Shown here piece after piece: positions 1 to 35,789 of a stretch of 35,789 nt of DNA. The position numbers were made by a program, and so were the translations under genes. The notes below the pieces were generated by a model that worked only from the letters and a program-made list of their open reading frames with translations, did no database searches and was not told where the DNA came from. Origin of the DNA: a virus. Within the stretch, counting starts at the first letter, position 1. The number at the start of each line of letters is the position of its first letter. The stretch is taken from positions 1 to 35,789 of IMG/VR virus record IMGVR_UViG_3300034013_000323. One strand, written 5' to 3'.

Positions 1-18
1 AACGTTACCAGTAATATT
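1..18. repeat. Right half of a hairpin cassette repeat (window edge)
   Basis: The window opens with AACGTTACCAGTAATATT. This is the core-box half of the hairpin repeat that separates the cassettes: GTTA, hexamer CCAGTA, then A. The matching inverted end of the same cassette is at 259-268 (reverse complement TTA, GCAGTA, G). The missing left half resembles the sequence at the far right edge of the window. Confidence 0.65.
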
Positions 19-1312: not shown

Positions 1313-1363
1313 GTTTAGGTTGTTTTAGTGGCAACAAAGCCAATCTGTAAACGTTAGCACTTA
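1313..1363. repeat. Short, degenerate hairpin repeat H3
   Basis: This is a reduced version of the cassette spacer. GTTTAGGTTG (1313-1322) can pair imperfectly with CCAATCTGTAAAC (1340-1352), with a small loop. It is followed by the core GTTA at 1353-1356, hexamer GCACTT and A. The right-hand core is intact and matches the far end of the next cassette. The left-hand core of the methyltransferase cassette is not clearly recognisable. Confidence 0.5.
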
Positions 1364-1573
1364 TTTTCGAGAACGAGTACTTACAACACGTTCGCTTTTC
1401 CGAATGATACAAATTTCATTCTCAAAATGCGTTTCAAAATTCCATCTATCAAGAGTAAATTTTGATATTCCTATTTCGTGAGTATTGCACAATATTGTCA
1501 AATCTCCGTAGTAAAAATGCTTTTCGTTTTCAAGTACGTTTTTAAATTCAATATGGTATAATTTTTTATTCAT
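1361..1573 (-). CDS. Hypothetical 70-aa cassette protein
   Basis: I do not recognise this protein. It begins MNKKLYHIEFKNV and looks like a small beta-rich soluble protein with a C-terminal basic stretch (ERVVSTRSRK). It overlaps the upstream 111-aa gene by 8 bases, so the two are probably translationally coupled. Its stop codon lies 4 bases from the GTTA core at 1353, which places it at the 3' end of a three-ORF cassette. There is no membrane segment. Confidence 0.6.
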   Translation of the reverse strand: MNKKLYHIEFKNVLENEKHFYYGDLTILCNTHEIGISKFTLDRWNFETHFENEICIIRKSERVVSTRSRK

Positions 1574-1901
1574 AAAAAAGCTCTGTTTTAGTTAATAAAA
1601 AATATAAATTTTGAAGCTCGTGAACTGTTTCGATTTTTATCAATTTATCAAGTGATTTTATTTCATAATAATTATTCATTGCCCATATATAAAATTCAAT
1701 TTCACCATATTTTATAAAATTTTTTGAATATTTTACAAACCCAAACTTTAATAACCATTCTTCTGTTAATGGTATTGGTTCAAATAGATTTGGATTTGAT
1801 TCAATATTACAAAGTCCAAAAAAAGATTTCATTTGAATTTTTGTTTTGTAAGTTTTAGAATAAACCCAATTACCAATTCTTAATTCTTTAAAGTTTATCA
1901 T
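1566..1901 (-). CDS. Conserved phage protein of the 'ELRIGNWV...LTEEWLLKFGF' type
   Basis: This is a 111-residue protein of unknown function. The pattern KELRIGNWVY near the N-terminus, PIPLTEEWLLKFGF in the middle and VHELQNLYFLLT at the C-terminus resembles a small protein I recall as recurrent in Bacteroidota phages and prophages. I know no biochemical role for it. It lies in the middle of a cassette, downstream of a broken 71-codon gene and overlapping the 70-aa gene by 8 bases. Confidence 0.7.
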   Translation of the reverse strand: MINFKELRIGNWVYSKTYKTKIQMKSFFGLCNIESNPNLFEPIPLTEEWLLKFGFVKYSKNFIKYGEIEFYIWAMNNYYEIKSLDKLIKIETVHELQNLYFLLTKTELFYE

Positions 1902-1969
1902 AATTTTATTTTATTTTAATCAAAAGCACCTCACGTTTTTTACTTGGTGGCTACTCCCAAACCTTTAAT

Positions 1970-2206
1970 TTAATTATTTTCTAAAACTTTTAATTTATAT
2001 CTTGCTGCTAATTGAAAAATCAAATGTGATTTAGAGGCTAATTTAGTTAATATTTTATCTCTTGAACTTTCGAAAATACCTAAAGCTATTGTAGTTATTA
2101 TTTAAAAATTTTCTTCTATATCTTTTGGAGTTTCAAAACCACATTCTTTAGCTGCTAATAAAAATAATTCTAATGAGTTTTCTAATTTTGTTTCAATTGT
2201 TGTCAT
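1970..2206 (-). pseudogene. Interrupted 77-codon gene (in-frame TAA)
   Basis: Reading from ATG at 2206 gives 34 codons (MTTIETKLENSLELFLLAAK and on to DIEENF), then TAA at 2102-2104. The same frame then continues open for another 43 codons (IITTIALGIFESSRDK and on to LKVLENN) to TAA at 1970. Both halves are amphipathic helix. A single A-to-T change (Lys AAA to TAA) would explain the break. A promoter-like TATATTTG lies just upstream at 2234-2241. It could instead be an intact 34-aa gene followed by an untranslated remnant. Confidence 0.55.
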
Positions 2207-2228
2207 AATTTCTATTTGTTTAAATTTG

Positions 2229-2260
2229 TTTTACAAATATAAGTAATAATATTTGTAAAA
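2229..2260 (-). promoter_or_regulatory. Promoter inside a perfect inverted repeat
   Basis: On the minus strand TATATTTG (2234-2241) fits the Bacteroidota -7 consensus TAnnTTTG. It lies in one arm of a perfect 11-bp inverted repeat, TTTTACAAATA (2229-2239) and TATTTGTAAAA (2250-2260), with a 10-base spacer. The arrangement suggests an operator overlapping the promoter of the 2206 gene group. No good -33 TTG is seen at 19 bases. Confidence 0.45.
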
Positions 2261-2312
2261 ACCTGATTAAATTACAAAAATAAATATTAAAATTTGTAAA
2301 TAGCAATAAAAA

Positions 2313-2454
2313 CAAGTGCTAACAGTGGTTTTATTCAATAGCGGTTTCGGTCTTTAATCGAAAATTAGTCTGTATTTGTAAACTTTAGGCATAACCGAAA
2401 GATGGTTTTTTTACTTTTCCACAACTAAATATAGCCGAGAACCGTTACCAGCAA
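2313..2454. repeat. attC-like hairpin repeat H4
   Basis: The left core GCTAAC (2318-2323) is preceded by hexamer AAGTGC and C, which mirror the other end of the cassette at 1354-1363. The arms around GTGGTTTTATTCAATAGCGG and the AACTAAATATAGCCGAGAACC region pair imperfectly. A smaller internal TTTCGG/CCGAAA pair lies inside. The loop contains TTAGTCTGTA (2365-2374) and GAAAGAT (2397-2403), both shared with repeat H6. The right core is GTTA at 2444-2447. Confidence 0.7.
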
Positions 2455-2468
2455 CCGCCAGTATTGGG

Positions 2469-3266
2469 TTATTTCGTGTCGCAAAAAATGCCACAATCAT
2501 AAGATTTTATTTTTCCTCCTTTTGCATCTTCTGGTAATTCATCAAGAAATATTCTTTTACCTTTCAATTTTACAAGTTTGCATCCAATTCGTTTACTCTG
2601 TTCAGAACGTTGTTCAAATACGTCAGGAAATGTTTTACGAACCAAATTCCAATAAGTTGGCGATTGGCTCTTTACACATCCGATACAATTTGCATTTGGA
2701 TAACCTAATTTATAAATTTTAGGTAATTCAATTCCCGCTTCTTCAAGTATTTTAAAGCAATCAATTTTAGTTAATTTCTCATCAATTAAAACAGGAAACA
2801 CATTACTTCGCTCAAATTTTGTAAATCTTTCGTGCCTTGCTTTTTCATCAATTGTAAAACCTAAAACGTGATAGTCAATTTTGTTTTCTGTTTCAAATTC
2901 ATAACGAGCTTGTTTTTTTAGGAATTTAGTGCAAGGCGCACCGTGAACACCACTAATGTATTTTCTTTTTTCAAAAACATCTATAATTGACGCAGTCGGA
3001 AACTCTTTGCTTTTCGCTTCAATAATTGGTAATCCAATCCATTTTTCAACATCTTTTAAAAACCTTCTGTTATCTTCGTGTTCCTCAACAACAGGATTAT
3101 TTACAACTAATATATTATATCTTTCCCCATAAATTTCAATAGTTTTTTTAGCAGCAACTGCGGAAGCTGCACCACAAGAAAACCAAACGGCAATAGTAGG
3201 ACGTGATATACTGGTAACACGTGATATACTCAATGTCTTATTCTCGGTTATTTCGTTTTTTAACAT
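2469..3266 (-). CDS. PAPS reductase-like (adenine nucleotide alpha-hydrolase fold) protein
   Basis: This is about 265 aa from the preferred ATG at 3266. An in-frame ATG at 3290 also exists, but the later one has the usual A-rich leader. It carries the PP-loop-like motif VWFSCGAASAVAAK, a VVNNPVVEEHEDNRRF segment, the HGAPCTKFLKK region and a C-terminal cysteine group (NCIGCVKS, then YDCGIFC) that may hold a metal or Fe-S site. The family includes PAPS/APS reductases and phage homologues. In phages the substrate is generally unknown, with nucleic acid modification and sulfur transfer both possible. It occupies its own cassette between H4 and H5. The superfamily call is firm and the reaction is not. 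Confidence 0.8.
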   Translation of the reverse strand: MLKNEITENKTLSISRVTSISRPTIAVWFSCGAASAVAAKKTIEIYGERYNILVVNNPVVEEHEDNRRFLKDVEKWIGLPIIEAKSKEFPTASIIDVFEKRKYISGVHGAPCTKFLKKQARYEFETENKIDYHVLGFTIDEKARHERFTKFERSNVFPVLIDEKLTKIDCFKILEEAGIELPKIYKLGYPNANCIGCVKSQSPTYWNLVRKTFPDVFEQRSEQSKRIGCKLVKLKGKRIFLDELPEDAKGGKIKSYDCGIFCDTK

Positions 3267-3308
3267 CTTTTTGTTTTTAATAATTAACATTCGTTTTCAT
3301 AAGTCGGC

Positions 3309-3338
3309 ACTAAGTATAGCACCATACGTTAGTAGCAA
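3309..3338. repeat. Minimal hairpin repeat H5
   Basis: This is the smallest spacer in the array: ACTAAGTAT (3309-3317), loop AGCACC, ATACGTTAGT (3324-3333). The GTTA core at 3328-3331 is part of the right arm, followed by GTAGCA and A. The left core hexamer (reverse complement GTGCCG) does not match the other end of the 2469 cassette (CCAGCA). This boundary therefore looks rearranged or shortened. Confidence 0.5.
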
Positions 3339-3340
3339 TA

Positions 3341-3703
3341 TTAGCGTATCGGTTCTAAAGACTCAATTCTATCATCAACGTAATCTTTTAAAAGAAAAAC
3401 ATTGTTATTATACTTTGCAGAGGCTAACCGCTGATTCCATTCGGAAACTTCACGATTAATTGAAGCTAATTCAAACTGACTTTCATACTTTCTGGCATAT
3501 TCCAAAGTTTCAACAAAAGCTTGTCTTTTAGTCACAAATTGATTATAATCATAACTTGCAATCGACCAAAATATAGTGTGCATAATCAAATAAATTCCAG
3601 CAATTAAACCTATAATTACGCCTAAAAATCCATACTCGTAACTTTTAATAGCTACTACAATTCCTAAAATTGTCAATCCTAATAAAATAAAAAATAATTC
3701 CAT
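3341..3703 (-). CDS. Small membrane protein with cytoplasmic coiled-coil-like tail
   Basis: This is a 120-aa protein of unknown function. Two hydrophobic segments fill the first 50 residues (FFILLGLTILGIVVAI, then GFLGVIIGLIAGIYLIMHTI). The hydrophilic C-terminal half is helical (QAFVETLEYARKYESQFELA). It is the single gene of a cassette whose stop lies 9 bases from the GTTA core at 3328. A phage membrane protein of this kind could be a superinfection-exclusion or host-takeover factor, but nothing in the sequence proves that. Confidence 0.65.
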   Translation of the reverse strand: MELFFILLGLTILGIVVAIKSYEYGFLGVIIGLIAGIYLIMHTIFWSIASYDYNQFVTKRQAFVETLEYARKYESQFELASINREVSEWNQRLASAKYNNNVFLLKDYVDDRIESLEPIR

Positions 3704-3711
3704 AATAAATA

Positions 3712-3854
3712 CTGGTTATAACAGCAATTACACGCTATTGCTACATTTGTGATTAATTTAATATTTAGTCTGTACCTTAAAGTTTCGTGTTAAACTGAAA
3801 GATAGTTTTGTGCTTGTACGCAACAGACGTGTAGTTGCAAAACGTTAATATTGA
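3712..3854. repeat. attC-like hairpin repeat H6
   Basis: The left core ATAAC lies at 3718-3722. The arms are GCAATTACACGCTATTGC (3724-3741) and GCAACAGACGTGTAGTTGC (3820-3838), which pair along nearly their whole length with one bulge. The right core is GTTA at 3844-3847, followed by ATATTG and A. The loop shares TTAGTCTGTA (3765-3774) and GAAAGAT (3797-3803) with H4. The right core GTTA overlaps the stop codon of the next gene. Confidence 0.75.
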
Positions 3855-9853: not shown

Positions 9854-10181
9854 TTATCATTTTTCCATTCCTTTTTGAAATCACATTATAGGCACTTTCA
9901 AGGCACTCAATTAAATTTAAACCTTGCAGTTTAGCTCCTATAATAATTGTTACTAAAATATCGCCAAATGCGTCTTGAATCTCCTCTTTAGTATTGCAAG
10001 TTGTTCCTTTATTGTTTTTGTAAGTTTGGCAGTCTTTACTTTGCCAAAAAATAGCCTCTATAAGTTCGTTGACTTCTTCAAGTGTTTTGTCGGCTTGTGC
10101 TACTGGTGTGGCTTTATCTAAAATTCCTTTATCTTTCGCCCACTCTAATACTTTTACTTCTAAATCTTCGTATTTTTTCAT
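9825..10181 (-). CDS. mazG: MazG-like nucleotide pyrophosphohydrolase
   Basis: MazG-family enzymes hydrolyse NTPs or ppGpp-like nucleotides to monophosphates. The 118 residues show the helical metal-binding pattern: KTLEEVNELIEAIFW (about 32-46) with the EExxE-type acidic set, then EEIQDAFGDILVTIIIGAK with the ExxD-type pair. AYNVISKRNGKM follows, the usual C-terminal helix. It neighbours ThyX in the early operon. Phage MazG proteins may counter host stress or defence signalling, which is family knowledge rather than something visible here. Confidence 0.85.
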   Translation of the reverse strand: MKKYEDLEVKVLEWAKDKGILDKATPVAQADKTLEEVNELIEAIFWQSKDCQTYKNNKGTTCNTKEEIQDAFGDILVTIIIGAKLQGLNLIECLESAYNVISKRNGKMINGKFEKDGK

Positions 10182-10196
10182 AATTATTTATTGTTT

Positions 10197-10466
10197 TTAA
10201 ATAAAGTTTTCTACCTGATGAGTATCTAAATTAGTGTATGTATGAATCAATTTTCTCATTTCATTTCCGCAACTTTCAGCCATCTTATAGCGGTCTTCAA
10301 TACTCATCTTATCGTATTCCATATTGTCGTATAATTTGTCCATTAAAGCGGTCTGAAATATTATCAACGTGTTCATAAATTCACGATTTGTGAAGTGTGG
10401 CTTTTTGCCCGCATCATTCAGATAACTCATTGCTATCTCTTCTAATTTATTTGAGTGTTTTTGCAT
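10197..10466 (-). CDS. Hypothetical 89-aa protein
   Basis: The protein is helical and slightly acidic, MQKHSNKLEEIAMSYLNDAG, with FTNREFMNTLIIFQTALMDK in the middle. It has no recognised motif. It lies 3 bases from the 82-aa gene in the early operon. The even spacing and shared strand support it as a real gene. Confidence 0.55.
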   Translation of the reverse strand: MQKHSNKLEEIAMSYLNDAGKKPHFTNREFMNTLIIFQTALMDKLYDNMEYDKMSIEDRYKMAESCGNEMRKLIHTYTNLDTHQVENFI

Positions 10467-10469
10467 AAT

Positions 10470-10718
10470 TTACATATTTGGGTTAAAACTTTTTCGCATT
10501 ATCGTATTTATTTTATTGGTTAATTCCGCAAAATAAGTGCTTTTTTGGATCGTGTAAGTGTTACTTACCTCATCATTAAGAAGTTCGCACATTTCGGTTA
10601 AATCGCTCTTTAACTGCTTCATTCGTTCTGTTGTTGGTTTTAAATCGTCAAGGCATTCAAGTAGCAATTGCATTAATGCGTAGAATAAATGCATTTTCAT
10701 ATTTTTAAATTTGCTCAT
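10470..10718 (-). CDS. Hypothetical 82-aa protein
   Basis: The protein is helical (MHLFYALMQLLLECLDDLKP) with a heptad-like pattern (RMKQLKSDLTEMCELLNDEV), so a coiled-coil partner protein is plausible. It belongs to the run of small early genes under the promoter at 11120. Function unknown. Confidence 0.55.
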   Translation of the reverse strand: MSKFKNMKMHLFYALMQLLLECLDDLKPTTERMKQLKSDLTEMCELLNDEVSNTYTIQKSTYFAELTNKINTIMRKSFNPNM

Positions 10719-10728
10719 AAAATTGGTT

Positions 10729-10878
10729 TTAAAAATTAATTTCTTCGTTTATTTCATCCCGAAATTTTTTGAAATCGCTTTCCATTTCGGTAATAAAATC
10801 TTTGTGTTTTTTAAGTTCTTTTTCCAAAGCTTCGATTCTTAGAGCTTGGAATTTTTCTAGGTCGGTTTGTGGATTCAT
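10729..10878 (-). CDS. Hypothetical 49-aa coiled-coil protein
   Basis: The ORF from ATG 10878 to TAA 10729 encodes MNPQTDLEKFQALRIEALEK followed by an acidic/basic helix ending EINEEINF. Its ATGA overlaps the stop of the 73-aa gene. Short length and heptad spacing suggest a small helical bundle. Not recognised. Confidence 0.55.
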   Translation of the reverse strand: MNPQTDLEKFQALRIEALEKELKKHKDFITEMESDFKKFRDEINEEINF

Positions 10879-11096
10879 AATGTTTTGTTATTTAGTTTTT
10901 CAATTTCTTTTCTAACGCTATACCAATAGCCTTTCCCTCGTCCAATTTTTGGTAAATCTTCTCTAAGTGCTTTTATAATTTCATTAACTGCTATTATTGC
11001 ACAAGTTTTAGCTTGTGCCTTTGACATTGTGAAAATAACATCTTTTTCAATATGAAATTTTAGCAAAAATTCTTCAGCTTTTTCTTTCGGTGTCAT
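10875..11096 (-). CDS. Hypothetical 73-aa protein
   Basis: An upstream in-frame ATG at 11132 exists, but the promoter -7 box (11120-11127) lies inside that extension, so the transcript starts later. ATG 11096 is therefore the start. The product begins MTPKEKAEEFLLKFHIEKDV and includes AKTCAIIAVNEIIKALREDL, resembling many Bacteroidota phage proteins of unknown role. It overlaps the 49-aa gene by ATGA. Confidence 0.65.
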   Translation of the reverse strand: MTPKEKAEEFLLKFHIEKDVIFTMSKAQAKTCAIIAVNEIIKALREDLPKIGRGKGYWYSVRKEIEKLNNKTL

Positions 11097-11119
11097 AAGT
11101 TTTGTTTTAAATTCTTTAG

Positions 11120-11169
11120 CAAAGATAGTCATACTTTTTAATTACGCAATAGTAAAATTAAAATTTAAC
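11120..11169 (-). promoter_or_regulatory. Extended Bacteroidota promoter, copy 2
   Basis: TTG (11147-11149), 19 bases, TATCTTTG (11120-11127). The -33 region ACTATTGCGTAATTAAAA and the upstream AT block are nearly identical to those of copy 1. It lies right after the terminator of the SSB-like gene and drives the operon from the 73-aa gene towards replication genes. Confidence 0.8.
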
Positions 11170-11183
11170 ATTTTATTTTTAAT

Positions 11184-11216
11184 AAAAAAAGTCGGCTAAA
11201 TTAATAACCGACTTTT
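11184..11216 (-). terminator. Intrinsic terminator after the SSB-like gene
   Basis: On the minus strand AAAAGTCGG, a 12-base loop, CCGAC and seven T residues form a classical terminator about 20 bases after the stop at 11235. It separates the recombination operon from promoter copy 2. Confidence 0.8.
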
Positions 11217-11234
11217 AGAGCTTTTTTAACCATT

Positions 11235-11597
11235 TTAGAAAGGTAGCGAATCATCTTCTATATCAATATCAGACTGCTCAACTGCATCGGTGCTTTTCTT
11301 TACAAAAATCTTTAAATTACCTAAATAAGGCAAACTAATTTCTTTTGCTTTTTCAGCTCCTAATTTTTTCCAAATTTCAGAAGGTAGTTTTTGAACTTGA
11401 AAACCGTAATTTCCGTTTTGGTCTTCCGAATCCATTGTAACTACATCGGTTTGTAAGTAAACAGCATCGTCTTTTAAAGTCAGATAGTTGTCATCAATTG
11501 GAAGTACTAAGCATTTTTGACCGCTTTTTGCAGTAATAATTGAATGCTTCATTTTTGTAAGTGCTACGCTTAATGCGTATGATTGTAGTTTTGCCAT
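11235..11597 (-). CDS. SSB-like protein with acidic DDSLPF tail
   Basis: This 120-aa protein ends DIDIEDDSLPF. It matches the acidic, hydrophobic-tipped C-terminus that bacterial and phage single-stranded DNA-binding proteins use to recruit partners. The body is beta-rich (KCLVLPIDDNYLTLKDDAVY, NYGFQVQKLPSEIW) but lacks an obvious OB-fold signature. The position beside NinB-like and YqaJ exonuclease genes fits a role coating ssDNA during recombination or replication. The tail is directly visible; the ssDNA-binding fold is inferred. It ends its operon with a terminator. Confidence 0.6.
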   Translation of the reverse strand: MAKLQSYALSVALTKMKHSIITAKSGQKCLVLPIDDNYLTLKDDAVYLQTDVVTMDSEDQNGNYGFQVQKLPSEIWKKLGAEKAKEISLPYLGNLKIFVKKSTDAVEQSDIDIEDDSLPF

Positions 11598-11647
11598 TTT
11601 ATAAAATGTATTTATTTAGCTTACCTTTTTTTACTGTTGTCGGCTTT

Positions 11648-12088
11648 TCAGTTTAATTCTAAAGTTAAATTTTCGTTCGGATCAGGAATATCAACTCCTA
11701 AAAATTCAGCCGACCATTTTTGAATATCAACTATGTAATCCATAAATTGAGAGGTTGTCATTTCAGAACTACTAATCTTTTCGCTTATGCATTCGCCTGT
11801 ATCGGTATTAATAATTTCACGTTCGGGTGCAAACATTTTTAAAACAATATTGTAGTGTATGTTTTCAGCCGTTCTAAACTCTCCAGTAGCTTCTTTTAAG
11901 CCATTTTGAACGATTGGTAAAACTACGCCCCAATAAAAATTGTTTTGAGGATTGGAGCGTGTTTTTTTTACCTTTTCAATCGTGAATAAACAATCCTTAC
12001 CTTCAAAGCTTTTAACCGCATCTACAATGTGATTAATGTTTCTTTTGAATTTACCATTTAATACGTTGGTTCGGATTTGTATTTTCAT
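11648..12088 (-). CDS. NinB-like recombination protein
   Basis: This 146-aa protein carries KKTRSNPQNNFYWGVVLPIV (about 41-60), the R-S-xxQN-xxxW pattern of the NinB/Orf recombinase-accessory family, which binds ssDNA and SSB in lambda. The C-terminal half (SSSEMTTSQFMDYIVDIQKW, then FLGVDIPDP) matches the family's closing segment. Its stop overlaps the exonuclease start by one base, and it precedes the SSB-like gene. Confidence 0.75.
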   Translation of the reverse strand: MKIQIRTNVLNGKFKRNINHIVDAVKSFEGKDCLFTIEKVKKTRSNPQNNFYWGVVLPIVQNGLKEATGEFRTAENIHYNIVLKMFAPEREIINTDTGECISEKISSSEMTTSQFMDYIVDIQKWSAEFLGVDIPDPNENLTLELN

Positions 12089-12705
12089 TAGAATTGTTGA
12101 TTTTCGGTCAAATACTTAACATAATCATTTCTTATTTCAGTAGCTTCTGCAATTCTTCGTTTAATCAAATCAATACGAGCTTCATCACGTTCTACAATTA
12201 TTTCGTGCCACATCTCTTTTCCTTTAAAAATAATATAGTTGAAAAAATGACAACGAACCGAATTTGTACACATCATCTGCATTTGCATCTGGTCTAAATA
12301 AGCCTTATCAACCACCTCAATTCCTTTTGCGACTAATTTAAAAAACTTAGTCGAACGAGGGCATTTGATTTCTAAGATAGCATCCTGACCTACTAATCCA
12401 TCGGGACTTGCTCCAGCATTATCTCCAAAAGTAAAGAATGAAGTTTCTTGAACGTCTAAAAAATCAAATTCTTTTAAATCTTTAAATTTACGAAAAGCAA
12501 TAGGTTCTAATTCCGTGCCTCGTTTCATATCGTAACTTTCAAAACTTTCTTCTTCATCAACGCCGTAAACTAATTCACAAGCTTTTTCAAAAGCATAAGT
12601 TTCTCCTGTTAAACCCAACCCTTTAACTCCTAAAAGGTCGCTAATTCGGGATGCAGTAAACCTACCTTCCCGAACTTTGAACCATTCTTTAGACCTCTGT
12701 TCCAT
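12088..12705 (-). CDS. YqaJ/lambda-type exonuclease
   Basis: This is a 5'-3' dsDNA exonuclease of the PD-(D/E)XK fold for single-strand annealing recombination. The 205 residues show RSKEWFKVREGRFTASRISD at the start and KRGTELEPIAFRKF (about 62-75). The core follows as GASPDGLVG with its Asp, LEIKCPRS giving the ExK, and YLDQMQMQMMC as the QxxxQ helix. Together these are diagnostic. The 169-aa neighbour, overlapping by 17 bases, may be its annealing partner. Confidence 0.88.
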   Translation of the reverse strand: MEQRSKEWFKVREGRFTASRISDLLGVKGLGLTGETYAFEKACELVYGVDEEESFESYDMKRGTELEPIAFRKFKDLKEFDFLDVQETSFFTFGDNAGASPDGLVGQDAILEIKCPRSTKFFKLVAKGIEVVDKAYLDQMQMQMMCTNSVRCHFFNYIIFKGKEMWHEIIVERDEARIDLIKRRIAEATEIRNDYVKYLTENQQF

Positions 12706-13198
12706 AAGTTAGATATTTTTGATAAACTTCATCAGTTAAATTGTAAATTTTTTCGATTTGTTCACGGGTGGCATTTGCGCCTTTAGCTTTCTCGAAATTA
12801 CTTTCTGTAAATTCAGGCTTACTTTTCACTAATTTTGGCTGTACGGGTCTAATTCTAACGCCCTGAGTAAGTCCGCCAGTAACCGCCCTTACATTTTCAT
12901 CAATGTATAATTCAATTACTATGTCTTTCCAATTTTCCACAAATGGACTACCGCCAGCAAACGCTTTAATTTGCTTTGAATTTGTTGCGTTTAAAACTAA
13001 AGGTTTTATTTTTTCGTAAAAATATGCGATATTAAAGTCTCCTTTTTTTCCAGCTACCTTTGCGCCAAACTCTTGTTTAACTTCTTTAATAGTAAATATT
13101 AAAGGTTTTTTTTGTTCAATTAAGTCTTCTAAATCTGCGCTTCCTAAGTGGTCTGATTTAAATACATTTCTGTAATGATGTTTGTTCTGTGTACTCAT
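12689..13198 (-). CDS. Hypothetical 169-aa protein, possible recombinase partner
   Basis: Not recognised with confidence. It has an N-terminal MSTQNKHHYRNVFKSDHLGS, a central WKDIVIELYIDENVRAVTGG and a C-terminal helix (ATREQIEKIYNLTDEVYQK). The first part resembles Bacteroidota phage proteins that accompany YqaJ exonucleases. Being first in the operon under promoter copy 3 and overlapping the exonuclease, it could be an annealing protein or SSB-type partner, but no RecT or Erf motif is visible. Confidence 0.6.
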   Translation of the reverse strand: MSTQNKHHYRNVFKSDHLGSADLEDLIEQKKPLIFTIKEVKQEFGAKVAGKKGDFNIAYFYEKIKPLVLNATNSKQIKAFAGGSPFVENWKDIVIELYIDENVRAVTGGLTQGVRIRPVQPKLVKSKPEFTESNFEKAKGANATREQIEKIYNLTDEVYQKYLTYGTEV

Positions 13199-13221
13199 AA
13201 TTTTTAGTTTTAAAGTTTTTT

Positions 13222-13265
13222 CAAATGTAGCATAATTTGTTTAATTACGCAATAGTAAAAATAAG
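13222..13265 (-). promoter_or_regulatory. Extended Bacteroidota promoter, copy 3
   Basis: TTG (13250-13252), 20 bases, TACATTTG (13222-13229), with the shared ACTATTGCGTAATTAAA string. It drives the exonuclease/NinB/SSB-like operon that ends at the terminator at 11184-11216. Confidence 0.75.
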
Positions 13266-13267
13266 TT

Positions 13268-13378
13268 TTATTTAAAATAAATTAACAGTTTTACAGCTGT
13301 TAAAATAATTGAACAATAAAGGATTACTCCTAAAAACACGTGAACTGATCGGATCAACTCTTCTTTATTTTCTTTCAT
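13268..13378 (-). CDS. Hypothetical 36-aa single-span membrane protein
   Basis: The ORF from ATG 13378 to TAA 13268 encodes MKENKEELIRSVHVFLGVIL and continues through one hydrophobic helix (VFLGVILYCSIILTAVKLLI). The leader contains an A-rich stretch. It lies between the hairpin element at 13488-13598 and promoter copy 3. Not recognised; small membrane proteins of this type are common in phage early regions. Confidence 0.45.
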   Translation of the reverse strand: MKENKEELIRSVHVFLGVILYCSIILTAVKLLIYFK

Positions 13379-13487
13379 TATTTTATGTTTTTTTAATTTT
13401 CAACGCTTAAAACTCTATAATTCAGGCGTTTTTAATTTGGTTTTGTAGTGATTAGTTGTAAAATATCAAAACGATTTTACAAAAACA

Positions 13488-13598
13488 TATATAAGCAATA
13501 GCGGGCGGGGCTTGGTTATACCGAAAAGTCAATGCACATTTGAAATTCCAGCCTTCCCTCTTACGTGCTGTGCTACTCACTCCGCTACTGCTCATATA
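13488..13598. repeat. Hairpin element related to the cassette repeats, inside the phage core
   Basis: Arms TATATAAGCAATAGCGG (13488-13504) and CCGCTACTGCTCATATA (13582-13598) match in inverted orientation at 15 of 17 positions. The arm string resembles GGTTATACAATAG and TTATTCAATAGCGG of H2 and H4. The enclosed 77 bases are visibly more GC-rich (GCGGGCGGGGCTTGG) than the surrounding DNA. A 48-codon ORF that fills it on the minus strand (13595 to 13449) is probably spurious. The rest of the 13379-13617 gap shows nothing else I can name. Confidence 0.6.
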
Positions 13599-13617
13599 CT
13601 TTGCTGTTTGCCATCAG

Positions 13618-13839
13618 TTAAACAACATCACGGCAAACCAAAATAGATATTGAAATAGCTTGAATAAATGAAGTTATCCAATTTATAGTATTGTTTTCTA
13701 TCCCCGCATCTCCATAAACTTGATGAAATATAATTGTTAGTGGTATTCCAATAATAGGAATGAAAGGCAAAAATTTACGCCATATAACAGCGGTTTTGTC
13801 GCATTGTGGCACTTGTGTGTTTTTTGAAAGTTCAGTCAT
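13618..13839 (-). CDS. Hypothetical 73-aa membrane protein
   Basis: It has two hydrophobic helices (FLPFIPIIGIPLTIIFHQV and WITSFIQAISISILVC) joined by a short polar loop, with a polar N-terminus. Its stop lies about 20 bases from the hairpin element at 13598. It belongs to the operon of small genes under promoter copy 4. A role in exclusion or lysis timing is possible but not shown. Confidence 0.5.
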   Translation of the reverse strand: MTELSKNTQVPQCDKTAVIWRKFLPFIPIIGIPLTIIFHQVYGDAGIENNTINWITSFIQAISISILVCRDVV

Positions 13840-13850
13840 AATTTTAAAAT

Positions 13851-14126
13851 TTATTTATTATTTCTTTGTTTGTCGTACTTTTCCATTGTTTTTATAAAAC
13901 TTAAACACGTGTTGTAAAAGTCGTTTATATCAAAAGATAAGTGGTGTTTTACAAAACAAAAAGGATAATCATTATTCCTATCTTCTGTGTCTTCTTTCAA
14001 CTTATTAGCAACTTTCATCAAGTTATTCCAATCCTTGCTCCAATCAATTTTTTCAGCAAAACTCAACTTATCAAAGTCAATGTTTAGATATTCCGCAAGT
14101 AGTTTGTTTTTTTCTATCTGTACCAT
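13851..14126 (-). CDS. Hypothetical 91-aa protein
   Basis: Soluble, mixed-charge protein (MVQIEKNKLLAEYLNIDFDK, then FCFVKHHLSFDINDFYNTCL). No motif recognised. It starts 2 bases after the stop of the 40-aa cysteine-rich gene, so it is part of that operon. The WSKDWNNLMKVANKL segment is reminiscent of small Bacteroidota phage proteins of unknown function. Confidence 0.55.
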   Translation of the reverse strand: MVQIEKNKLLAEYLNIDFDKLSFAEKIDWSKDWNNLMKVANKLKEDTEDRNNDYPFCFVKHHLSFDINDFYNTCLSFIKTMEKYDKQRNNK

Positions 14127-33443: not shown

Positions 33444-33725
33444 TTACTTTTTCACGTTTGACCGTTTGTGATTCATATAAACCTCTCCTTTTTTTAGGAA
33501 AGATACGGGATAATTTTTGATCGGGTCTTTACGATTAACTTTAACGTTTAAAGGTAAATCAGTGAACTTATCCACACGCTGGTAAGTTGTATCTAATTTT
33601 GTAATTGATTGAACCACATAGCCAACTACTCTATGTGTGCTTGTATTAATTGACTTAACTGTTTTGATTGTGTCTTGCGCTGTAACTGCTTCAGCAACTA
33701 ACAGCAAAAATAAAAGTTTTTTCAT
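33444..33725 (-). CDS. Exported 93-aa protein
   Basis: Signal peptide MKKLLFLLLVAEAVTAQ (cleavage near residue 16) is followed by a soluble, basic mature part (DTIKTVKSINTSTHRVVGYV, then KNYPVSFLKKGEVYMN). A host-envelope location is expected. Its role is unknown. It lies 1 base from the ribbon-helix-helix gene and upstream of the terminase genes, so it is probably expressed with packaging genes. Confidence 0.6.
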   Translation of the reverse strand: MKKLLFLLLVAEAVTAQDTIKTVKSINTSTHRVVGYVVQSITKLDTTYQRVDKFTDLPLNVKVNRKDPIKNYPVSFLKKGEVYMNHKRSNVKK

Positions 33726-33726
33726 T

Positions 33727-33909
33727 TTAAAATGGTGTTTCTGATTTCTCAGTTTTTGGGATTAAATCTTTGTACTCTTTTTTGATTTTTTCAGCTATTG
33801 CATCTCTGATGAATTTACCGACATCTACGCTATAAGATTTCATTTTTTGCAAAGTTTTGTGTTGAATTTCTGAAATTCGTATAACCTTTGTTTTAGTATA
33901 TAGTTTCAT
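33727..33909 (-). CDS. Ribbon-helix-helix-like DNA-binding protein
   Basis: This 60-aa protein starts with a strand-like MKLYTKTKVIRISEIQH, then two helices (KTLQKMKSYSVDVGKFIRDA, AIAEKIKKEYKDLI). The layout is that of the Arc/MetJ type ribbon-helix-helix domain. It may regulate the packaging or cassette genes; its start lies about 30 bases from the cassette boundary at 33942. Confidence 0.6.
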   Translation of the reverse strand: MKLYTKTKVIRISEIQHKTLQKMKSYSVDVGKFIRDAIAEKIKKEYKDLIPKTEKSETPF

Positions 33910-33941: not shown

Positions 33942-33952
33942 GTTAACCGCTA
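33942..33952. repeat. Cassette boundary core (left end of RNA ligase cassette)
   Basis: GTTA (33942-33945), hexamer ACCGCT (33946-33951) and A (33952). The same hexamer in inverted orientation ends the cassette at 34908-34918 (reverse complement TTA, ACCGCT, G). No full hairpin accompanies it on the phage side, so this is the junction of array and phage core. Confidence 0.6.
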
Positions 33953-33954
33953 TT

Positions 33955-34875
33955 TTAAAAGACGTTCGGTAATCTTTCACGAACTTTAGCGAAAACGAAA
34001 TGTTGAAGCGTTTTAAAATTAATAGTTGGGTTACGATTTTCTTTAACGAAATTCCAGCATTCCTCTTTTACAATTTCATAATAAATCACATTTAATAATC
34101 TTGGTATCATTTTACTACTCCAACCATCAATGCTTTCAATTTTAGCAAACTCTTTTTCACAAAAAGCAGTTGTAACATATTTTTCAGCAATTTCTTCTTC
34201 AACCATTTTTTTACCTTCAATAGTTGGTTTACCCATTACTTTAGCGTGTTTTTCTTTAAACTCGCTTGTTACAATTTTAGCCCAAGTTTTGCGACCATAT
34301 TTATTTTTAAAATCATAATTTTTTAAAACAATTCCTTCTCCGTAACCTTTGCCATCTTCAATAAGAAAATTGTTTTTCATTAATTGATTTACTAATTGTT
34401 CATAATTACTATTCCTAATTACAGCAATTGGTGGTATAAAATCAATTTCGTGTTTCTCTAATAATGGCTTATAATCGTTGTAGTGCAAGTAATTAAACTT
34501 TTCGTCTGTATCGTGTTGTAATTCTGATAAATCTCTATCTTCTACAACTTCAAAAACATAAAACTTTCTCCAAGCATCGTTTCTGTAAGTTTTTAAAGAA
34601 TGTGGTACAAGCCATTCTCCAAAAAGTCTATGTGTTGGGTTTTCTTTTAGGTAATTTAATAAGTTTTCTTGTTTTAAAACCCATTCCAAAAATCCAGCAT
34701 TATCTTTTTCAAGTGATAAATGACGTGTTCGGCTTCCAGCTTGTATTTCTCCGTTATGAAGCCATACACTTGCATTTGTTCCATCAATTTTTGGGAATAT
34801 GTGGCATTCTCCTAATTCAATGTTTTGAACTTCTGTAGTTCCAAATCTTTCTAAATGTTGATACTTTTTAAACAT
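33955..34875 (-). CDS. RNA ligase (T4 Rnl2-like)
   Basis: This is an ATP-dependent nucleotidyltransferase that would seal RNA nicks. The start is ATG 34875, because the upstream extension (MLTAVFLLIKLKFIN) reads into the hairpin repeat. The motifs are I KIDGTNASVW with Lys29 as the adenylated residue; motif III near HRLFGEWLVPH; motif IV EGIVLKNYDF; motif V RKTWAKIVTSEFKEK. About 306 aa fits the family. It may repair tRNAs cut by host anticodon nucleases, which is family knowledge. It is the sole gene of a cassette with perfect hexamer match at both ends. No polynucleotide kinase gene is seen beside it. Confidence 0.88.
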   Translation of the reverse strand: MFKKYQHLERFGTTEVQNIELGECHIFPKIDGTNASVWLHNGEIQAGSRTRHLSLEKDNAGFLEWVLKQENLLNYLKENPTHRLFGEWLVPHSLKTYRNDAWRKFYVFEVVEDRDLSELQHDTDEKFNYLHYNDYKPLLEKHEIDFIPPIAVIRNSNYEQLVNQLMKNNFLIEDGKGYGEGIVLKNYDFKNKYGRKTWAKIVTSEFKEKHAKVMGKPTIEGKKMVEEEIAEKYVTTAFCEKEFAKIESIDGWSSKMIPRLLNVIYYEIVKEECWNFVKENRNPTINFKTLQHFVFAKVRERLPNVF

Positions 34876-34907
34876 ATTTATAAATTTTAATTTGATTAAT
34901 AAAAAAA

Positions 34908-35047
34908 CAGCGGTTAACACACGCTTGGCAAAAAAGCGGTTTTAGTGCTAAATTGAACATTCGTGCTTTCTATTGGCATTTGTGCTAAAATGAAAGTTTG
35001 TGCTTCCAAGCCCGCTTCTTCGCCAAGCGTGGGAACGTTAGCAGTAA
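34908..35047. repeat. attC-like hairpin repeat H8 (cleanest copy)
   Basis: Left core GTTAAC with hexamer and C (34908-34918), then perfect 10-bp arms CACGCTTGGC (34920-34929) and GCCAAGCGTG (35022-35031). An inner AAGCGG/CCGCTT pair lies within, and the right core GTTAGCAGTAA (35037-35047) follows. Inside the loop a GTGCTAAA...TGAA unit is duplicated. Two nested stems separated by unpaired bases recall the R/L-box order of integron attC sites. Confidence 0.8.
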
Positions 35048-35326
35048 TTATTCAGAAACCTTATTTTTCATAAGTTCATTTAGTTTATCTTGGAACTTAC
35101 TTTGTTTAACAATCTTTTTTTCGTCATCTTTTGTTGCGTTCAAATCGACTTTTATTTCATTGCATTTTACCACAATAGCAATTATCCATAAAATAGAATA
35201 AAGTGTTATGAAAATACCCCAATAAAGGCTGTCTACTTTGAAATAATAAAGCAAAAACGAATAAAGAATAGTGCTTTGAAATGGTAATCTTACGGGTAAA
35301 CTTGTAATAACAAAATGTTTTTTCAT
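35048..35326 (-). CDS. Small membrane protein (92 aa)
   Basis: The start is ATG 35326; GTG 35329 precedes it and is less likely. There are hydrophobic segments (PFQSTILYSFLLYYFKVDSL and YWGIFITLYSILWIIAIVVK), then a charged C-terminus (DKLNELMKNKVSE). It is the single gene of a cassette whose end hexamers match perfectly (GCAGTA). Function unknown. Confidence 0.65.
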   Translation of the reverse strand: MKKHFVITSLPVRLPFQSTILYSFLLYYFKVDSLYWGIFITLYSILWIIAIVVKCNEIKVDLNATKDDEKKIVKQSKFQDKLNELMKNKVSE

Positions 35327-35343
35327 CACGTTTAGTATTATAA

Positions 35344-35483
35344 CTACTGCTAATACATAATTGTAGCAATAGCTTGATTGTTTTTTAATTTAATGTTTTG
35401 TGTTTTCTTGGTTAATTTTGGCTTAACCGATAATTAGTTTTGTTTCAGTACGCTACTGCAACAATTATCCAAATTGTGCGAGA
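35344..35483. repeat. attC-like hairpin repeat H9
   Basis: Left core GCTAA with hexamer TACTGC and C (35344-35353), then arms ATAATTGTAGCAATAGC (35357-35373) and GCTACTGCAACAATTAT (35452-35468), matching 15 of 17. The right core here is TTG rather than TTA: TTG, TGCGAG, A (35474-35483). The variant core is mirrored at the other end of that cassette (35731-35740). Confidence 0.75.
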
Positions 35484-35485
35484 TG

Positions 35486-35695
35486 CTACGAAACCGCATA
35501 AAAAGTGAATACATCAGAACATTTACGTAAATAAGTTACGATATGATATTCTTTGTTTTCTATTTCAAAAGAAGTTAAATAACAGTATTGTTTACCATTA
35601 TTAGAAATTCTACCATTTTTTATAACTCTTTGAACTAAAGTTAATACTGAAATATCATCCATTTCAGTTTGATTTTTGATTATTATTTTTGACAT
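35486..35695 (-). CDS. Hypothetical 69-aa cassette protein
   Basis: Small mixed-fold protein (MSKIIIKNQTEMDDISVLTL, YCYLTSFEIENKEYHIVTYL). It is alone in its cassette, with the stop 3 bases from the core at 35474-35483. Its two ends share the unusual TTG core with hexamers TGCGAG/TGCGAT. Not recognised. Confidence 0.6.
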   Translation of the reverse strand: MSKIIIKNQTEMDDISVLTLVQRVIKNGRISNNGKQYCYLTSFEIENKEYHIVTYLRKCSDVFTFYAVS

Positions 35696-35730
35696 TTTAT
35701 TTAATTTATTAAGTTAATATTTAAAAGCAC

Positions 35731-35789
35731 CATCGCACAACAGCAGTTACACAATACCAGCCGAATAAACGCAACCGCATAGGCTGGCA
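35731..35789. repeat. Left half of a hairpin cassette repeat (window edge)
   Basis: The core with hexamer lies at 35731-35740 (reverse complement TTG, TGCGAT, G). AACAGCAGTTACACAATACC follows, similar to AACAGCAATTACACGCTATT of H6, then a CCAGCC (35757-35762) / GGCTGG (35782-35787) stem. The repeat is cut by the window end and would be completed by sequence like that at 1-18. Confidence 0.65.

Follow-up and report, generated by a model that had tools for sequence, protein, structure and literature searches.

A cassette array at the ends of a phage genome

Both ends of a 35,789-base virus record, which in its entirety is the window analysed here, hold groups of gene cassettes separated by hairpins, one beyond the end of the structural genes (position 3845) and the other on the terminase side (position 33900). 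The record carries a terminase gene and has relatives among viral contigs, and Flavobacterium phage 6H (Duneviridae) shares the end of its array together with the adjoining gene. Because the contig ends cut a hairpin, of which a single arm is seen at 35738–35789 (the edge of its other arm may be window positions 1–8), we can only infer that they join; the two groups would form one array in a circular or permuted genome.

The hairpins run from a TAAC core to a GTTA core and were detected with a covariance model, R1, built from 17 phage hairpins and restricted to their interior, TAAC to GTTA. All sites and cassettes described here for the window lie on its minus strand. On the structural-gene side are sites at 266–393 (102 bits, its interior being among those used to build R1), 1231–1356 over the start of the methylase ORF (72 bits, outside the training set), 2320–2447 (95 bits), 3215–3331 over the start of ORF 2469–3290 (55 bits, outside the training set) and 3719–3847, which forms the structural-gene end of the array (89 bits). 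On the terminase side is the site at 34915–35040 (117 bits), belonging to the RNA-ligase cassette and with homologues 5′ of the ligase gene in the phage loci L032 and L038. A weaker hairpin occupies 35356–35473 (44 bits, model positions 6–121); this site, with edges at about 35351–35474, and the one at 35740/contig start are degenerate or truncated by the contig ends. The array ends beside the phage gene at 33444–33725 with a boundary core TAAC at 33942–33945 that no hairpin follows, and homology of the ligase cassette stops at 33942 in several phages (L031, L032, L033 and L043).

Eight cassettes lie in these two groups. Those with recognizable products are cassette 2 (390–1234), encoding a C5 cytosine methylase (PF00145, 4e-38; phrog_116), with ends AATGCA/AATGCA; cassette 4 (2444–3218), encoding a PAPS-reductase-like protein (phrog_424, 8e-45), with ends CCAGCA/CCAGTA; cassette 5 (3328–3722), encoding a small membrane protein (phrog_14705), with ends GTAGCA/TAACCA; and cassette 6 (33942–34918), encoding an RNA ligase (PF09414, 8.5e-17; phrog_548), with ends ACCGCT/ACCGCT. 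The others, delimited from the sequence, are cassette 1 (5–268; ORF 17–238; CCAGTA/GCAGTA), cassette 3 (1353–2323; ORFs 1361–1573 and 1566–1901; GCACTT/GCACTT), cassette 7 (35037–35354; ORF 35048–35329; GCAGTA/GCAGTA) and cassette 8 (35471–35741; TGCGAG/TGCGAT, with TTG cores).

An Rfam search of the window returned no matches, and no Phage_integrase match was found in the record, which may be incomplete. With at least seven sites by R1, where two close together suffice, and no integrase in the record, the array is a CALIN.

The hairpins resemble attC sites

Compensatory changes occur in 16 of the 23 stem pairs of the R1 alignment, and across 148 distinct sites 94.3% of pairs are formed, with a covariation of 0.674 compared with 0.173 after shuffling. 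As in attC sites, an imperfect palindrome with a covarying inner stem is bounded by a conserved outer GTT/AAC core, mostly TAAC/GTTA. The strict R′ consensus GTTRRRY is followed in its GTT core and not in its RRRY part, the first base after GTTA being G in 45, T in 32, C in 16 and A in 3 of 96; natural attC sites vary at this part of R′, and the attC-like assignment therefore stands. Sites detected by R1 are present in 173 of 395 Bacteroidota genomes, often in long arrays.

Cassette ends match through an extended outer stem

The initial annotation of the window listed six cassettes carrying matched hexamers at their two ends, and all six pairs are in place, agreeing at 5, 6, 3, 6, 6 and 5 of 6 positions, a result equalled by only 2 of 720 pairings. 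The list was nevertheless incomplete, two cassettes having been missed because their hairpin sites overlap ORF starts: the sites beginning at 1231 and 3215 complete two more matched cassettes, with AATGCA/AATGCA at 393 and 1231 and CCAGCA/CCAGTA at 2447 and 3215. Over the eight cassettes 42 of 48 end positions match, which is reached by 6 of 40320 permutations (exact p = 1.5e-4). The pair GTAGCA/TAACCA (3331/3719), noted as weak from the start, is still poor (3/6), and the hexamers that face each other across one hairpin do differ, with only 2, 0, 2, 3, 2, 1 and 1 matches.

The larger comparison that the annotation had called for bears this out. Among 106 cassettes, ends agree at 5.20 of 6 positions within a cassette, compared with 2.10 for ends on either side of a hairpin and 2.13 after shuffling; the highest value in 10,000 shuffles was 2.57, and shuffling inside each array gave 2.71 on average and 3.31 at most. 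Matching within cassettes is thus better than between random ends, and the ends are complementary in the circular form, as expected of attC cassettes. The hexamers play no role in R1, as only the TAAC-to-GTTA interior is modelled.

Beyond the hexamer, matching extends to position 11. In 96 well-matched cassettes, positions 1–5 agree in 95–99% and position 6 in 68%, position 7 does not agree in any, and positions 8–11 agree in 80–89%, a layout of five pairs, one obligate mismatch (position 7) and four further pairs. The end side of position 7 is A in 95 of the 96, and the start side is G, C or T, which gives mostly a G·T pair on the R1 strand and an A·C mismatch on the opposite strand. Just inside the core is a second fixed G·T pair (140 of 147 sites). 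The profile was unchanged when repeated with a detection method blind to these positions. In canonical IntI arrays of the same phylum the ends match at positions 1–6, and the second paired block is absent.

The R1 strand is the better-folding one at 123 of 130 sites; at all 130, the folded site is more stable with matched than with swapped ends. We propose that the fixed mispairs may help to choose the strand.

End matching as such is not new for integrons: the ends of most integron cassettes contain 9–11 consecutive self-complementary nucleotides (PMC2727003). What is new here is the system, not extended pairing of attC ends.

Each gene appears to travel with its own hairpin

The gene unit, not the repeat, had been proposed as the mobile piece. 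The cassette does appear to move, with ends that pair in the circle, but the repeat is not left behind. In all seven pairs of homologous cassettes found in different neighbourhoods, not all of them independent since some are repeats of one cassette family, the start-side hairpin is 83–100% identical and the other 58–64%. As one flanking hairpin is kept and the other changed, every cassette has a hairpin (attC) of its own, and sequence comparison indicates that the mobile unit is gene plus hairpin rather than the gene alone.

The original suggestion that the two ends are those of a single cassette and pair with each other in the circle agrees with the greater stability of the matched folds and with the RNA-ligase cassette, whose ends co-vary across phages as ACCGCT, GCCGCT or CCTGCT, each present at both ends. 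The homology of this cassette in L032 and L038 takes in the hairpin 5′ of the gene. It was sought on plasmids and not found there, and bacterial genomes gave one match only, at 57% identity.

A tyrosine recombinase adjoins the chromosomal arrays

Adjoining the hairpin arrays of bacterial chromosomes is typically a tyrosine recombinase of about 350 residues, which we refer to here as intX. In 21 of 27 genomes no more than 5 kb separate it from the closest site on the list, with a median of 1.9 kb (positions compared by hand between listings). Across the 395 Bacteroidota genomes, sites and intX co-occur with an odds ratio of 17.6 (p = 3e-29); relatedness of the genomes inflates this p value, and adjacency is less affected. 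The corresponding odds ratio for sites and canonical IntI is 0.55, that is, sites are under-represented in genomes with IntI. Sites without intX at the threshold occur in 73 genomes and intX without sites in 16, some of these assemblies being incomplete, and three of the recombinases counted as intX are divergent (L149, L150 and L154). Canonical IntI above the cut-off is itself present in 105 of the 395 genomes, far more than older complete-genome surveys suggest.

The protein matches PF00589 and has the catalytic R, K, H, R, H and Y of tyrosine recombinases, with R204, K229/K232, H294, R297 and Y329 invariant and H320 conserved in more than 90% (alignment A4). Its best NCBIfam match is NF040815, 'site-specific tyrosine recombinase/integron integrase', and nine intX proteins score 190–211 bits with the integron integrase model TIGR02249, below its cut-off of 265 (canonical IntI, 476). 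In the same alignment, gaps of 31 and 10 columns relative to IntI mark the absence of the IntI-specific insertion, an additional domain within the catalytic domain (Messier and Roy 2001, as cited in PMC2426708). Preceding the region shared with IntI is an extra stretch of about 75 residues (residues 1–75, L131:17415–18458), which has no Pfam match and could be a DNA-binding domain. In a phylogenetic tree intX joins IntI, and the Xer proteins encoded by these genomes fall separately (100/99); the tree is compatible with intX forming one clade or not (AU p = 0.46).

Immediately after the intX stop codon is a predicted attI-like site of about 100 bp, containing repeats and a CATATAAACAAGTT core, at which the first cassette starts. 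The cassette beside intX in L131 follows the same end rule (GGTGCTGGCGT/GGTGCAAGCGT), and plasmid NZ_CP041688.1 of Chryseobacterium sp. SNU WT5 carries intX, the attI-like site and six hairpins. The intX loci thus have the layout of an integron, with an integrase gene, an adjacent predicted attI-like site and an attC array, although the recombinase is by definition not IntI. Searches of viral contigs and phage records for full-length intX gave only partial or Xer-like matches of less than 60% identity.

Several other features were observed at these loci. Beside some arrays intX is broken by stops or in fragments (L129:5945–6870 in genome G404 and L133:5006–9935 in G141), which suggests that the recombinase was lost recently. 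In the array of the Chryseobacterium plasmid, a group II intron with its reverse transcriptase lies about 110 bases from an attC-like site (L267:20722–22464); group IIC introns are associated with integrons. Chromosomal cassettes near intX in L128 encode, by sequence, a reverse-transcriptase-like protein (13048–13884) and a UvrD-like helicase (9953–12913), which are possible defence genes.

Gene polarity is reversed in phages

Taking the hairpin strand as reference, genes have one orientation in phages (12:0) and the opposite one in chromosomes (78:6), and 48 of 49 flanking ORFs in phages, counted by hand, share the phage orientation. Genes run with the R1 strand in the phage loci (L054, L032 and L057–L086), so that phage cassettes have attC 5′ of the gene, whereas in the chromosomal loci (L127–L146) they run against it and attC lies on the 3′ side of the gene, the arrangement of ordinary integrons. 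The simple model does not account for the inverted orientation in phages, which might reflect selection for genes read in the direction of phage transcription.

Discussion

The array is very probably a flavobacterial-phage CALIN in which cassette ends are matched through an extended stem, and whose type of site is served by intX in Bacteroidota. Each cassette consists of one gene and one attC-like hairpin, in an array without its own recombinase. Once a cassette is excised as a circle, its ends would flank the hairpin and pair through TAAC/GTTA and 5 bp, pass a fixed non-Watson–Crick position and resume pairing for 4 bp. The extended stem would be part of a single-stranded recombination site, and the matching of the ends would be maintained by selection for base pairing in the circular form. 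The same sites would be served by intX and its downstream attI-like site in the chromosomes of Bacteroidota and on at least one plasmid, from Chryseobacterium. It is likely that intX recombines these hairpins and that its substrate is one folded strand, and phages may obtain cassettes from intX-bearing hosts.

That the cassettes are canonical ones, moved only by canonical IntI and acquired by the phage, with intX an unrelated neighbour, appears improbable. Published work describes CALINs in phages and the recombination of a Polaribacter phage attC by IntI1 (PMC9892861); canonical IntI is common enough in the phylum (the 105 genomes above), and its arrays also match at positions 1–6. The hairpins, however, are under-represented in IntI genomes and adjoin intX instead, an attI-like site lies directly 3′ of intX, and the second paired block with its obligate mismatch is missing from IntI arrays of the same phylum. 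As canonical IntI can act on at least one attC of a flavophage, intX is not necessarily the sole enzyme.

Palindromic repeats between genes, a GTTA/TAAC core at both ends and a window without a recombinase might also be read as transposon-like or regulatory repeats (REP or terminators), and the matched ends would then be the terminal inverted repeats, or the target duplications, of small transposons. This is very unlikely, as members of a transposon family would have their inverted repeats in common, whereas the variable ends here are private to each cassette, matched within it and co-varying in orthologous cassettes; moreover, one hairpin travels with each gene, and head-to-tail tandem arrays start at the attI-like site next to a tyrosine recombinase. 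Still harder to credit is a shuffling of phage genes by homologous recombination at shared hairpin arms, with end matching hitch-hiking from common descent. Phage genomes are mosaic, and the ligase cassettes have conserved outer hairpin arms around a centre that is different in L033, but private matched ends occur in unrelated cassettes, including those of bacterial chromosomes, and descent alone would not be expected to fix non-pairing at position 7.

Closest to the CALIN proposed here are the phage CALINs of Qi et al. 2023 (PMC9892861), for example that of Polaribacter phage P12002L, which is likewise an integrase-less attC array in a virulent flavobacterial phage, with methyltransferase cassettes. 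R1 matches P12002L at 39122–39245 (E = 2e-5) and more weakly at 38035 and 39893. An attC site of this phage was recombined in vivo by IntI1 (PMC9892861), although the sites matched by R1 may be other ones, and IntI1 activity is known only for this flavophage relative. The main text of PMC9892861 names no Flavobacterium phage. Relative to the phage CALINs described in it, the present work adds a likely host-side recombinase family, the extended outer stem and a gene polarity reversed with respect to attC.

With canonical IntI integrons (TIGR02249) the intX system shares an integrase gene, an attI-like site, an array of gene-plus-hairpin units, matched ends and one strand that folds preferentially. 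It differs in lacking the IntI-specific insertion, in the extra N-terminal residues, in a recombinase co-directional with the cassettes, and in the second paired block with its position-7 mismatch. The inverted integrons of Treponema and others resemble it in that the integrase is read in the cassette direction, but their integrase is a canonical IntI. A sub-clade of inverted IntI is mentioned in PMC8352920. The Xer recombinases (XerA/XerC/XerD) are also close, the best NCBIfam match of intX being NF040815, but the tree separates intX from them.

We lean slightly towards regarding these loci as a second kind of integron in Bacteroidota, operated by an IntI relative that lacks the I2 insertion, a domain regarded as indispensable for hairpin recognition. 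In such an integron an extended outer stem with fixed G·T-type mispairs would replace or precede I2-based recognition; it may predate the gain of I2 by IntI, and flavophages would carry its cassettes in inverted polarity. A search of open-access literature, which leaves out most subscription journals, turned up no earlier account of an I2-less system. The evolution of attC hairpins and the I2 domain of IntI, neither useful without the other, has been called a chicken-and-egg paradox (PMC4792948), and natural attC-like arrays served by an I2-less relative of IntI would make the question of their origin testable. Surveys requiring canonical IntI found few complete integrons in Bacteroidota (PMC9024848). 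The present results suggest that integron-like gene shuffling is common in this phylum, and that it reaches Bacteroidota phages, whose cassettes include genes for DNA methylation and RNA ligation.
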